In this document: in pieces, positions 1-11,029 of the stretch
Layout of the letters: the number at the start of each line of letters is the position of its first letter
How positions within the stretch are numbered: position 1 is the stretch's first letter
Origin: an uncultured Neisseriaceae bacterium
Lineage (GTDB): Bacteria; Pseudomonadota; Gammaproteobacteria; Burkholderiales; UBA11063
DNA length: 14,944 bases
Direction: 5' to 3'
NCBI GenBank assembly: GCA_903891375.1
Contig: CAITEL010000112.1
Span: forward strand, 1 to 14,944
Position numbers and translations under genes: made by a program
The notes under the pieces: generated by a model
What the model was told of the DNA's origin: nothing
Seen by the model: the letters and a program-made list of their open reading frames with translations, nothing else
Databases searched by the model: none

Positions 1-1
1 A

Positions 2-175
2 ATATTCAATAATTATAAGAAAAGAAAACTTCTTGAAAAAATACTTCACCCTTTGGTAATTGCAGAAATAAAAAGATACATAACGCAATTTAAAATAAAG
101 AACCGGATTATTATTTTTGAAGCGCCTTTACTTTTTGAAGCAAGAATGGAAAAAATGGCCGATATTATTGTGGTT
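2..175 (+). other. coaE: Dephospho-CoA kinase (CoaE) fragment fused in frame to fmt
   Basis: The translation upstream of the Fmt part contains RKLLEKILHPLVIAEIKRY and later APLLFEARMEKMADIIVVV. These fit the middle of CoaE, which phosphorylates dephospho-CoA in the last step of CoA synthesis: the conserved HPL motif, the PLLxE motif, and the strand ending in (A)D-x-x-x-V-V. By recall this corresponds to roughly residues 75-130 of E. coli CoaE. The ATP-binding P-loop would lie left of the window, and the C-terminal third of CoaE is missing. The exact junction cannot be placed, because ADIIVVV fits both CoaE and the Fmt strand before AYG. The assignment rests on motif recognition; no alignment was run. 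Confidence 0.75.
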
Positions 176-862
176 GTGGCTTATGGCTTAATTTTACCTA
201 AAGAATTTTTAGAAGTACCTCGATTTGGGTGCGTAAATATCCATGTATCACTATTACCTAAATATCGTGGAGCTGCCCCAATTCAACGAGCAATAATTGC
301 AGGAGAAACCGAGTCTGGCATTACTCTTATTCGGATGAATGAAGGACTTGATACTGGAGATATTCTCATGCAAGAATCTACACTTATTGAAGATAACGAA
401 ACTTCTGGTAGCCTACACGATAAATTAGCTGAACTAGGTTCTCAAATGATTATTAATTATTTATATAATTATAAAACTATCATCCCTACCGTACAACCTA
501 ACTTGGGCACAAGTTATGCGCATAAAATCAATAAAACTGAAGCTAAAATAAATTGGCAAGAAAATGCATTAAGTATATCACGCAAAATTAGAGGTTTTAA
601 TCCAGTACCAGGATGCTTCAGCACATTAAATGGTCAAGTAATAAAAATTTGGCAAGCTGAAGTTGGAAAATACACCAGCAATCAAACGTATGGCACAATA
701 ATTCAATGTACTAAGAACAGTATTGTGGTTGTCTGTGGTGAGAATTCAACTCTAATTATAAAAGAATTACAAGAGGCTGGTAAAAATAGATTAAACATGC
801 AACAATATTTATTAGGTCACTCTGACTTAACTGGTAAATTATTTTCTAATGATGGTAATTAA
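2..862 (+). CDS. fmt: Methionyl-tRNA formyltransferase, N-terminus replaced by a CoaE-like segment (5' partial)
   Basis: From about position 160 to the stop this frame is Fmt, which formylates initiator Met-tRNA using 10-formyl-tetrahydrofolate. Visible hallmarks are VVAYGLILP, NIHVSLLPKYRGAAPIQ and LDTGDIL. Counting residues from the TTG at 53, the catalytic Asn, His and Asp are N62, H64 and D100, equivalent to N106, H108 and D144 of E. coli Fmt. A normal C-terminal domain follows (KINWQ, IRGFNP). The first ~80 Fmt residues, with the AGTP motif and the SPVK folate/tRNA loop, are absent. The frame has no stop back to position 2, and that upstream part resembles dephospho-CoA kinase (separate entry). 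TTG at 53 lies inside the CoaE-like part and lacks a Shine-Dalgarno, so it is probably not the start; the real start is outside the window. Formylation activity is doubtful without the N-terminal fold. No terminator hairpin is evident after the stop. Confidence 0.85.
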   Translation: MFNNYKKRKLLEKILHPLVIAEIKRYITQFKIKNRIIIFEAPLLFEARMEKMADIIVVVAYGLILPKEFLEVPRFGCVNIHVSLLPKYRGAAPIQRAIIAGETESGITLIRMNEGLDTGDILMQESTLIEDNETSGSLHDKLAELGSQMIINYLYNYKTIIPTVQPNLGTSYAHKINKTEAKINWQENALSISRKIRGFNPVPGCFSTLNGQVIKIWQAEVGKYTSNQTYGTIIQCTKNSIVVVCGENSTLIIKELQEAGKNRLNMQQYLLGHSDLTGKLFSNDGN

Positions 863-992
863 CTAATTTTCTAACTCAAACACTCACAATTTATTTTCTA
901 CATACATCAATACGCAGAATAGAATTGCAGGCTCACAGGAAATTGCTAAACATTTATAAAAAATTTTATTACCGCAAGGGCGAGTATTGTAT

Positions 993-998
993 TATAAT
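993..998 (+). promoter_or_regulatory. Possible -10 element upstream of the exported-protein gene
   Basis: A perfect TATAAT lies in the 286-nt gap between fmt and the gene at 1149, with a TG dinucleotide a few bases before it. No convincing -35 hexamer stands 16-18 nt upstream, so this is a weak call. If used, transcription would start near 1005, at the foot of the hairpin at 1004-1042, and leave a 5' untranslated region of about 145 nt. The rest of the gap (863-990 and 1043-1130) shows no other gene or clear element. Confidence 0.3.
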
Positions 999-1003
999 AA
1001 TGC

Positions 1004-2420: not shown

Positions 2421-3698
2421 ATGCATAAAATACCCAATTTAAAAACCGCTTTAAATGTTCCGCTCTTAGAATTAGAAAAAATTTGCTTACAACATCAACA
2501 TGAAATTGAACACTGGTTTAGAAGCAAATGGCATACCAATAAACCACCTTTTTATGGCTCAGTTGACTTAAGAAATAGCAGTTATAAACTTACACCTGTT
2601 GATATGAATCTATTCCCTGGTGGTTTTAATAATATTAATCCTGACTTTATCCCACTAGCCGTACAAGCCGTTAACAACTTAATTGAACGATACTGCCCAA
2701 ATGCTACAAAAGTTCTTTTAATCCCTGAGAACCACACTCGCAATCTAGCATACTTGAAAAACGTGTATACTTTAAATTTCATTTTAGAGCAAGCTGGTAT
2801 CAAAACTGTCATCGGTTCATTATCTGAAGAAATAACTGAAGCAACCACTATAAATGTGACTGACGAATTAACCATGACGTATTACCCATTAATACGTGAA
2901 AATAATCGCATTAAAACAACAAATGGATTTGATGCATGTACTATATTACTCAATAATGATCTCTCTAATGGTAAACCTGCAATTTTAGAAAATATTGAAC
3001 AAATCCTCCTCCCTCCGCTAAATGCTGGATGGTATATGCGTAAAAAAACTAATTATTTTACGCAATATGATATAGTTTGTGACGAATTTGCTAATGTAAT
3101 TAACATTGACCCATGGCTGATTAATGCTTACTTCGATATTGCAACAGATCTTGACTTTGCTAATAACCAAGGTATTGAAATATTAGCACAAAAAGTTGAT
3201 ACAATCATTAATAAAATTAAAAGCAAATATGCAGAAAATAATATAACAGATACCCCATATGTAGTAGTAAAGGCTAATAACGGCACATATGGAATGGGGA
3301 TTATGACAGTTAAATCTGGAGATGAAATTTTAAAAATTAATCGCAAATCTAAAAATAAAATGGCGGTAATAAAAGATGGGCAAACTGTACACGACGTAAT
3401 CATACAAGAAGGTGTTTATACATTCGAAAAAATTAATAATCAGGTGTCAGAGCCAGTTATCTACATGATGGATTCCGCAGTTATTGGTGGGTTTTATCGA
3501 GTTCACCCAAAAAAAGATGTAAATGAAAACTTAAATGCAATGGGAGCACACTTTATTCCACTAACATATGCATGCGAAGCACTACCAGGAAAAACAAAAC
3601 ACCCAGAATGTTGCGCACCAAATAGATTCTACACATACAGTGTCATCGCTCGGTTAGCCTTACTCGCAAGTAGTTATGAAATTAAAACTTATTTGTAA
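2421..3698 (+). CDS. gshA: Glutamate-cysteine ligase (GshA, PF08886 type)
   Basis: This is predicted to ligate glutamate and cysteine with ATP, the first step of glutathione synthesis, in the cytoplasm. The 425-residue length and motifs fit the GshA family typical of Betaproteobacteria and Acidithiobacillus rather than the E. coli type. Landmarks are SVDLRNSSYKLTPVDMNLFP (47-66), PGGFNNI just after, IPENHTRN (101-108), WYMRKKTNYF (204-213), VVKANNGTYGMGIMTV (282-297, the likely nucleotide-binding part), IQEGV (328-332) and IGGFYRVH (355-362). A purine-rich AAAGAG stretch lies just before the ATG at 2421. gshB, which often follows this gene type, is not in the window; a VOC-fold gene comes 105 nt later instead. 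Family assignment is by motif recognition and is strong, while the catalytic details are inferred from the family. Confidence 0.92.
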   Translation: MHKIPNLKTALNVPLLELEKICLQHQHEIEHWFRSKWHTNKPPFYGSVDLRNSSYKLTPVDMNLFPGGFNNINPDFIPLAVQAVNNLIERYCPNATKVLLIPENHTRNLAYLKNVYTLNFILEQAGIKTVIGSLSEEITEATTINVTDELTMTYYPLIRENNRIKTTNGFDACTILLNNDLSNGKPAILENIEQILLPPLNAGWYMRKKTNYFTQYDIVCDEFANVINIDPWLINAYFDIATDLDFANNQGIEILAQKVDTIINKIKSKYAENNITDTPYVVVKANNGTYGMGIMTVKSGDEILKINRKSKNKMAVIKDGQTVHDVIIQEGVYTFEKINNQVSEPVIYMMDSAVIGGFYRVHPKKDVNENLNAMGAHFIPLTYACEALPGKTKHPECCAPNRFYTYSVIARLALLASSYEIKTYL

Positions 3699-4233: not shown

Positions 4234-4279
4234 ATATACTCGAACAGATTCAGACATGCGTGAATCTGTTCGAGTATAT
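4234..4279. terminator. Perfect 19-bp inverted repeat between convergent genes
   Basis: ATATACTCGAACAGATTCA (4234-4252) and its exact complement TGAATCTGTTCGAGTATAT (4261-4279) flank the 8-nt loop GACATGCG. The element starts 4 nt after the VOC stop and ends 36 nt before the stop of the minus-strand yceI gene. Such a placement suits a bidirectional terminator. No run of T follows on either strand, so it differs from a textbook intrinsic terminator. It could also be a member of a dispersed repeat family. Confidence 0.6.
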
Positions 4280-4315
4280 TACAAAACTTGGGTATTGTAT
4301 AATGCACTTATTCAA

Positions 4316-4831
4316 TTACTCAACAAAAACCTCTGCTTCAATTTTTAACTTTACTGTGTCACCAATACCTGGTAAATATGCACTCATGCCAAAATCAGAA
4401 CGCTTTAATTCACTTTTAGCAGTAAAACCTACACTCTTCTTATTGGTCATAGGATTAACCCCAATTAAATTCATTGATGCATTTAGTACGAGTGATTTAG
4501 TCACACCAAGTAACGTAAAATCACCTTCTACCTTTGCGGTTTTATTATCTATCATAGTAATTCTAGTGCTTTTAAATCTTGCCTCAGGAAATTCCTCACA
4601 ATTAAAAAAATCTTTACTTTTTAAATGCTCATTGAATTTGTCAATCCCTGTAGATAAAGTATTAATATCTATCACAACATTTAAAGCACTCTGTTCTGGA
4701 ATCTCTTCATTAAACGATAAATCACCATCTATCTGCGTAAACTGACCTTTAGGCGACGAAAAACCAAAGTGGCTACAACACCACATAACAGAGGTGTGCA
4801 TTGGGTCAAATTTATAACTTAATGTACTCAT
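4316..4831 (-). CDS. YceI-family lipid-binding protein, cytoplasmic form
   Basis: This encodes 171 residues of the YceI family, lipocalin-like beta barrels that bind isoprenoid or fatty amide ligands. Visible family features are the opening YKFDPMHTSVMW with HFGFSSPKGQF (a D-x-x-HS / H-x-G pattern), the central HLKSKDFFNCEEFPEARFKS, GDFTLLGVTKSLVL, and the closing SDFGMSAYLPGIGDTVKLKI. Many relatives carry a signal peptide, but this one starts directly in the first strand and so is probably cytoplasmic. I chose ATG at 4829-4831 (MSTLSY) because GGAG at 4838-4841 sits 6 nt upstream. A start four codons earlier, TTG at 4843, would overlap that site. It lies 28 nt after phzF, so the two are probably co-transcribed. 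The ligand is unknown. Confidence 0.9.
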   Translation of the reverse strand: MSTLSYKFDPMHTSVMWCCSHFGFSSPKGQFTQIDGDLSFNEEIPEQSALNVVIDINTLSTGIDKFNEHLKSKDFFNCEEFPEARFKSTRITMIDNKTAKVEGDFTLLGVTKSLVLNASMNLIGVNPMTNKKSVGFTAKSELKRSDFGMSAYLPGIGDTVKLKIEAEVFVE

Positions 4832-5682: not shown

Positions 5683-5740
5683 CACCTCCAACGCTCACGG
5701 ATAATCTGTGCGAACGAATACCACCAGCACTAGGTATCAG
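5683..5740. other. Locally GC-rich intergenic patch
   Basis: This 58-bp stretch between the 96-residue gene and phzF is about 52% G+C by direct count, against roughly one third for the surroundings. It contains a small interrupted repeat of ATACC/GGTAT type on the minus strand. I see no tRNA, terminator or recognised insertion-sequence end in it. It may hold the phzF promoter region or be a remnant of inserted DNA. Confidence 0.3.
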
Positions 5741-6027
5741 CTTAAATCTAGCACATAGTCTCTAGCAACGTTATTCATTGCAAGACATAAATTTAATAAA
5801 AAATTAATTGAATCATCTGGAGCTGGCTTCTTAAAAATTGAGTCAATATTTTCTATATATCGCCATTCTGTAAATGAGTTACTAAATTCAGACAATTTAT
5901 TCTTAAATTTATCCAAGTTAAAATTTTCATTACTTAATTTATTGTACTTACAAAAACTTTCATATATTATATTAAAGTTATTAAGAATCTTAGTTTTAAT
6001 AGCTTCATGCGTAAAAATCAGACTCAT
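5737..6027 (-). CDS. Hypothetical protein, 96 residues, after nuoN
   Basis: I do not recognise the family. The product is soluble-looking, mostly helical, and rich in Asn, Phe, Lys and Ser. It has no signal peptide and no membrane segment. Residues 51-59 (SFTEWRYIE) and 74-91 (INFLLNLCLAMNNVARDY) loosely recall the C-terminal part of HEPN-like or abortive-infection proteins, but this is only an impression. The frame opens with an in-frame stop just two codons before ATG 6027, so a longer N-terminus is not available here and the gene could be the tail of a once larger protein. No good Shine-Dalgarno is seen. It begins 45 nt after nuoN on the same strand and may be read from the nuo transcript. 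Betaproteobacterial nuo operons often end with other small genes, and this one does not look like them. Confidence 0.55.
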   Translation of the reverse strand: MSLIFTHEAIKTKILNNFNIIYESFCKYNKLSNENFNLDKFKNKLSEFSNSFTEWRYIENIDSIFKKPAPDDSINFLLNLCLAMNNVARDYVLDLS

Positions 6028-9031: not shown

Positions 9032-11029
9032 TTAACTAAATATCAAACTGGTACAGAAAGTTAACAAAATAATAACTCCTAGGACCATAAAAGTAGCATA
9101 ACTATTTACGTATCCACTTTGTAATTTTCTAAATACCCTAGAGTACCACTCAACAACTTTTGCTGAACCATTTACAATTAAACCATCAATAATTACCATA
9201 TCACCAATTGTCCATAAGAATTTCCCAATACCACGTCCAAATGGTGCAAATAGCTTAATATACAGGTCATCCATATAGTATTTTTTATCTAATAAATTAT
9301 ATACTGGTTTTATGATGTTAACAAACTTTTGCGATAAACCATCAACTTTATGGAATACAAATGCAACAATGATACCTGCCAAGGCAAGATAAACTGGTGG
9401 TTCTTTAAAACTATCAATAATCATATTTATTGGGGTAATAGTTTCTTCTGCAAAACGTTGTGTAATCCATGAAATATTAAATACACTTCCATCTAAAATA
9501 GCTCCACCAACAAATAACTTCAGCCCTAGCCAACCAATTATAACAGATGGAATCGCCATTAATATCAATGGTAATGTCACTACAAACGGCGATTCTTTTG
9601 GGTTAGTGTGCCCACCATGATGTTCATCATGCCCATGATGGGAATGGTCGTCGTGTATATCCCTAAAACGCTCTTTACCATGAAAGGTCATAAAAATTAA
9701 CCTAAAACTATATAATGCAGTAACAAAAACTGAAGCATAAACCGTAAATACTGCAAATGCACCACCTGGTAAACCGTGTTGATAAGCCACCACCGCCGAG
9801 GTAATAATCATATCTTTGGAAAAGAAACCAGCAAATGGCGGAATCCCAGCTAAGGCTAAACTGCCAAGTAACATTGTAATGTATGTGATTGGCATATATT
9901 TAGCAAGTCCACCCATTTTACGCATGTCTTGTTCGTGATGCATCGCTAAAATAACAGAACCAGCAGCTAAGAATAGTAATCCTTTAAAGAATGCATGAGT
10001 CATAAGATGGAATATCGCAACCGAATACGAACCGCAACCTAATGCCACCGCCATATAACCTAACTGAGAAAGTGTGGAGTACGCAACAACTCGTTTGATA
10101 TCCGTTTGAATAATCCCAAGAATCCCTAAGAAGAAACAATTAATCCCACCTGCATAAATAATAACAGATAACGCCGTCTCGGATAAATTAAACATTGGCG
10201 ATAATCGTGCTACCATAAATATACCAGCGGTAACCATTGTTGCCGCATGAATTAATGCAGAGATTGGTGTTGGACCTTCCATCGAATCAGGTAACCATAC
10301 ATGTAATGGAAACTGTGCTGATTTACCCATCGCACCAATAAACAATAAAATACACATAACTGTAATTATGTTCCAATCAGTACATGGTAACATAACTTGA
10401 GTTAAACTTGATACCTTAGCAAATACATCAACATAATTAAGTGAGCCACAATATGCAAATACTAACCCGATACCAAGTAAAAAACCTAAATCACCAATTC
10501 TATTAATCAAAAATGCTTTTAAATTGGCAAAGATAGCCGATTCACGTTTATAATAAAACCCAATCAACAAATATGATACCAATCCAACACCTTCCCAGCC
10601 AAAGAAAAGTTGCATAAAGTTGTTAGACATCACAAGGATAATCATCATAAACGTAAATAACGAAATGTAACTAAAGAATCTTTCGTAACCATCTTCTTCT
10701 GCCATATAGCCTATTGTATAAATATGCACCATAAGTGATACACTAGTTACTACTACCAACATTATTGAGGTTAAAGTATCAATTAATATGCCCACAGAAA
10801 ATGTCTGACTACCAACAGTTAACCAAGTATATAGTGGCCCATTATATGTAATATGCTCAAGCTGTACTTGATAAAGCACAATATATGAACATACCGTAGA
10901 AATCAACACTCCCAATATTGTAAGTGTGTGACTAGGTTTTTTACCAAGCTTAACCCCGAAAATGCCAACTATAACAGAGGCAATAAGCGGTGCTAATATT
11001 ATCGTTAAGTACAAAGAGGTTCCTACCAT
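9032..11029 (-). CDS. nuoL: NADH-quinone oxidoreductase subunit L
   Basis: This is the distal antiporter-like subunit of the complex I membrane arm, 665 residues, with a long C-terminal lateral-helix region after about residue 500. Conserved features are Glu146 in FFGWEGVGLVSYLLIGFYY, Lys236 in GKSAQFPLHVWLPDSMEG, followed by PTP, the HAATMVTAGI helix, VVAYSTLSQLGYM and LAGIPPFAGFFSKD. A histidine-rich loop, HDDHSHHGHDEHHGGH (459-474), precedes KESPFVVTLPLILMAIPS. A similar His-rich insert occurs in NuoL of some other proteobacteria. The start is backed by AGGGA at 11038-11042, eight bases upstream. It lies 17 nt after nuoK and 10 nt before nuoM. Confidence 0.98.
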   Translation of the reverse strand: MVGTSLYLTIILAPLIASVIVGIFGVKLGKKPSHTLTILGVLISTVCSYIVLYQVQLEHITYNGPLYTWLTVGSQTFSVGILIDTLTSIMLVVVTSVSLMVHIYTIGYMAEEDGYERFFSYISLFTFMMIILVMSNNFMQLFFGWEGVGLVSYLLIGFYYKRESAIFANLKAFLINRIGDLGFLLGIGLVFAYCGSLNYVDVFAKVSSLTQVMLPCTDWNIITVMCILLFIGAMGKSAQFPLHVWLPDSMEGPTPISALIHAATMVTAGIFMVARLSPMFNLSETALSVIIYAGGINCFFLGILGIIQTDIKRVVAYSTLSQLGYMAVALGCGSYSVAIFHLMTHAFFKGLLFLAAGSVILAMHHEQDMRKMGGLAKYMPITYITMLLGSLALAGIPPFAGFFSKDMIITSAVVAYQHGLPGGAFAVFTVYASVFVTALYSFRLIFMTFHGKERFRDIHDDHSHHGHDEHHGGHTNPKESPFVVTLPLILMAIPSVIIGWLGLKLFVGGAILDGSVFNISWITQRFAEETITPINMIIDSFKEPPVYLALAGIIVAFVFHKVDGLSQKFVNIIKPVYNLLDKKYYMDDLYIKLFAPFGRGIGKFLWTIGDMVIIDGLIVNGSAKVVEWYSRVFRKLQSGYVNSYATFMVLGVIILLTFCTSLIFS

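Follow-up and report, generated by a model that had tools for sequence, protein, structure and literature searches.

The open reading frame that joins a dephospho-CoA kinase (CoaE) to methionyl-tRNA formyltransferase (Fmt) at the left edge of the contig examined here is, with a probability of about 95%, an artefact of metagenome assembly, in which a graph join linked sequences from two organisms, and not a new protein. That the join is technical in one form or another, whether through a graph error or a chimeric molecule, is close to certain. The window analysed is the entire contig C112 (14,944 bases) of the host assembly G000. Of the two readings offered by the initial annotation, the technical one, in which the assembly was joined at a short stretch of shared sequence, was borne out, on the grounds that the DNA is identical up to base 182 to a coaE gene from another phylum and that the host coaE is intact and unmatched by the DNA of window positions 1-180; the alternative of a true fusion, a scar or a product of gene conversion was not. 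The left edge comprises the following features:

2-862, + strand: hybrid CoaE-Fmt frame of 286 amino acids, with no internal stop and open at the contig edge
1-160, + strand: foreign coaE piece of the Firestonebacteria type, 100% identical to part of contig C107 of genome G108, matched by the Pfam CoaE family and cut by the contig edge
161-182, + strand: join zone of approximately 22 bases, encoding DIIVVVA, that fits either gene and is delimited by the end of donor identity and the start of congener conservation
183-862, + strand: genuine fmt of an Aquella-like betaproteobacterium without its first approximately 80 codons, matched by TIGR00460 and 73% identical to protein P0008

The passage of one uninterrupted frame from CoaE into Fmt, as described initially, was confirmed by domain searches. 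Pfam assigned residues 1-61 to CoaE (45.6 bits against a cut-off of 27), residues 50-152 to Formyl_trans_N (122 bits) and residues 175-273 to Formyl_trans_C (96.2 bits), whilst NCBIfam identified a dephospho-CoA kinase over residues 1-60 and fmt over residues 51-274, the TIGR00460 score being 233.6 bits (cut-off 201.5) over profile positions 78-305 of 315, with positions 1-77 unmatched. When residues 1-57 were searched alone, CoaE families and zero formyltransferase families were retrieved from Pfam and NCBIfam, hence the suggestion that the first ~55 residues might lie closer to Fmt N-termini was answered in the negative. Both terminal domains are incomplete: the formyltransferase N-terminal domain (PF00551) is represented only by profile positions 77-179 of 181, and the kinase domain (PF01121) by positions 72-131 of 180. 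The N-terminal loop of CoaE binds the nucleotide, and judging from the donor protein this loop lies before the contig edge. The product had been proposed to lack the C-terminus of CoaE and the N-terminus of Fmt, which holds, with the correction that the start of CoaE is also absent, because the contig begins there and the first residue of the window corresponds to residue 77 of a 200-residue donor protein.

Residues 1-60 of the frame were found to be 100% identical to P0001, an intact CoaE of 200 amino acids. A search of named genomes with P0001 aligned to five relatives recovered at least three loci, two of them in Candidatus Firestonebacteria metagenome-assembled genomes (MAGs; 62% and 70%) and a third in a distant Dehalococcoidales record (31%). 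Window positions 1-200 were searched at the DNA level against 45 genomes from the phylum of the 70% Candidatus Firestonebacteria MAG and were matched in seven of these. One stretch, G108:C107:29228-29409, was 100% identical to window positions 1-182 (182/182), the next best of the 45 genomes reaching 73%. Beyond base 182 this identity is lost, and of the 300 positions that follow, compared in register, only 90 agree. The coaE gene of G108 is complete (200 amino acids) and follows a DNA polymerase A frame in the interior of the 46,228-base contig C107; by eye, a single residue close to the C-terminus distinguishes its product from P0001, hence P0001 originates from a near relative. Window positions 1-182 are identical to part of an intact coaE from the phylum of Candidatus Firestonebacteria, but encode only donor residues 77-136, the N-terminus falling past the contig edge and the C-terminus being replaced by Fmt.

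G000 and G108 were compared in both directions. When the whole window was compared with G108, only positions 1-182 and one 78% stretch (10223-10327, in a frame read by eye as nuoL) were matched, and comparison of the 3.2-kb donor locus with G000 returned window positions 1-182 and one 74% stretch on contig C23. At high identity, the contig edge is all that G000 and G108 have in common. No match to window positions 1-180 was detected in 99 relatives, and within G000 these positions matched only themselves and 27 bases on contig C351, which lie in another gene, by eye one encoding a permease-like membrane protein. What was found is thus the signature of an inter-genome chimera, namely a part identical to another organism with the identity ending at a word compatible with both. 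Counting against a chimera, the donor stretch is assembled whole in G108, with no break visible there. GC content does not clearly separate the parts, being 26% at positions 1-150 and 25-41% in the other 150-base stretches of positions 1-1500.

The position of the join was delimited with 19 fmt loci, 18 from the same genus and one from the same order, of which 14 were readable by a motif on either strand; L008, L016, L018, L019 and L026 could not be read in this way and stand outside the counts that follow. Conservation between the window and the congener fmt genes starts at an Asp codon at position 161, this residue being Asp in 14/14 loci. It is preceded by Pro in 12 loci, by Ala in one and by Ser in one, and identity further left is mostly low; at these preceding residues the window has the Met-Ala of the donor. 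Since donor identity ends at 182 and congener conservation begins at 161, the join must fall within these ~22 bases, so that the short shared sequence anticipated by the initial annotation stands, whilst its placement near 155-175 has been shifted to 161-182. The length of the shared word, as judged from relatives, is 22 bases, and would be longer only if the preceding codon also agrees. For genomes of 2.08 and 2.7 Mb, a rough estimate that assumes independent bases with the composition of the window and donor locus predicts 13 shared 21-mers, 3.6 22-mers and 0.26 24-mers by chance.

Common assemblers begin with k near 21. The Firestonebacteria-type coaE and the Aquella-like fmt may share a word of ~22 bases coding DIIVVV(A), in which case the assembler, having missed or not chosen the true path through the fmt N-terminus, would have walked via this word into the coaE of the other organism, and would have stopped ~160 bases on, at what is now the contig edge. 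Such a k-mer mechanism would presuppose that one sample or co-assembly contained both organisms. At this point a similar strand is encoded in the same frame by both families, which explains why the reading frame survives the join. In its treatment of chimeric contigs, a review of metagenome assembly describes how shared k-mers link the graphs of several genomes and so give rise to such contigs (PMC7299287). The present case resembles these in that two organisms are joined at a short word, but that treatment speaks mainly of closely related species, whereas here the organisms belong to different phyla and the frame happens to be kept across the join.

A chimeric library molecule or read, formed by ligation or by PCR template switching at the shared word and then used by the assembler at the edge of a low-coverage gap, would look much like a graph error. 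The foreign piece extends past the shared word for ~160 bases, which by the usual read lengths is of the order of one short read and would suit such an origin; it amounts, however, to a variant of the technical explanation already given, and the shared word makes a graph error sufficient, so that we consider a chimeric molecule improbable.

The host assembly of 2,075,562 bases in 422 contigs is rated 94.3% complete and 3.34% contaminated. An intact host coaE is located on contig C206 (174.5 bits), and the sole other CoaE match in the assembly is the window piece itself. The Fmt part of the frame matched proteins of Aquella oligotrophica, an Aquella MAG, and Burkholderiales and Neisseriaceae MAGs among the 120 matches listed of 7996, and aligned with residues 79-311 of P0008. 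From about residue 54 onward it is thus an ordinary Fmt (TIGR00460) of Aquella-like bacteria, differing from these in that foreign sequence stands in place of the first ~80 codons. An Fmt N-terminus was not found elsewhere in G000 when P0008 was searched against the whole assembly at E values up to 10, nor did tblastn with residues 1-80 of P0008 detect one in the loci of the two deformylase genes (L036 and L037) or the locus of the host's own coaE (L028). Of the complete copies expected elsewhere, that of coaE was located, whereas for Fmt neither a second copy nor an N-terminus was found in the assembly, which fits a gap at the contig edge better than a duplicated gene.

The sequence that belongs to the left of the window was sought through synteny. 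In five of the 14 congener loci (L009, L010, L015, L017 and L021) the frame before fmt is ribH, called by Pfam in L010 and L015 and by eye in the other three; most other loci carry a different frame at this position, and L011 begins too near fmt to tell. The only ribH of G000 is situated at C163:11033-11446, at the end of a contig of 11,447 bases, where the frame runs off without a stop near its last codons; the frame preceding it (within L050, G000:C163:9533-11447) was read by eye as ribBA. No overlap between the end of C163 and either the window or the donor locus was detected for words of 12 to 21 bases, which indicates a gap between C163 and the window. Gene order makes the ribH end of C163 the likely left neighbour of the window in the genome. 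If so, a single gap interrupts both C163 and C112, with the 160 foreign bases at its edge. The absent stretch would comprise the end of ribH, a spacer and ~80 fmt codons, which the search with P0008 did not recover from the assembly.

A real and very recent cross-phylum recombination, in which a piece of Firestonebacteria coaE entered the Aquella-like fmt at the short shared word and left a hybrid frame with no intact Fmt, would account for the frame being open across the join and for the failure to find a second Fmt in an assembly rated as largely complete. The transfer would nonetheless have to be recent enough to preserve 182/182 identical bases between phyla, would require loss of the Fmt N-terminal part, and would need the contig edge to fall by coincidence within the insert and the ribH contig to end at that gap too. 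Nor was the fusion encountered elsewhere: a formyltransferase domain is absent from all seven matches to residues 1-60, a CoaE domain is absent from the 120 matches listed for the whole frame (of at least 7996), and full-length Fmt relatives, unfused and in open frames of 312-356 amino acids, occur in 18 of the 22 same-genus genomes, the other four yielding only a fragment or weak matches. Several independent results therefore point away from a biological fusion, and recombination is regarded as very improbable, more so than a chimeric molecule. A deletion scar or gene conversion involving the host's own coaE was rejected, as window positions 1-180 have no DNA match to C206.

Searches bearing on a phage or plasmid origin were negative, with none of six candidate stretches in a viral contig collection (viral_contigs) encoding a relative and window positions 1-1000 having no match in a plasmid collection. 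No tRNA gene is present in the window.

As biology, the CoaE-Fmt frame read as an assembly artefact is of no consequence, but it is useful as a caution. At a contig edge, a word of ~22 bases that encodes a similar strand in two families can give rise to a hybrid frame that mimics a fusion of two conserved genes, and automatic annotation could record such frames as fusion proteins if the foreign half is not followed back to the genome it came from.

Downstream of fmt, the contig continues with the following genes:

1149-1622, + strand: small secreted-looking protein with a GTG start, without a Pfam or NCBIfam match
1755-2336, + strand: BON-domain lipoprotein (PF04972, 93.2 bits), also found after fmt in L010 (by Pfam) and in L011 and L015 (by eye)
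2421-3698: glutamate-cysteine ligase of the TIGR02049/PF08886 type (565.9 and 580.5 bits)

By eye, frames resembling that at 1149-1622 come after fmt in L010, L011 and L015, and further downstream in L014 and L017. In L010, L011 and L015 the small protein carries the motif VCYHN or similar and is followed by the lipoprotein, the same order as in the window; this protein represents a lineage-specific family without a name. After the BON lipoprotein, the glutamate-cysteine ligase is succeeded by genes for a glyoxalase-family protein, a YceI protein, a PhzF-like protein and an unnamed protein, and then by part of a nuo operon, in which NuoN, NuoH and NuoG were assigned by profile, and those lying between N and H were read by eye from gene order and sequence. 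A frame of 96 amino acids without a Pfam or NCBIfam match (5737-6027) adjoins nuoN. Another, of 161 amino acids on the + strand (4260-4745), overlaps most of the - strand YceI gene and is probably a chance frame.
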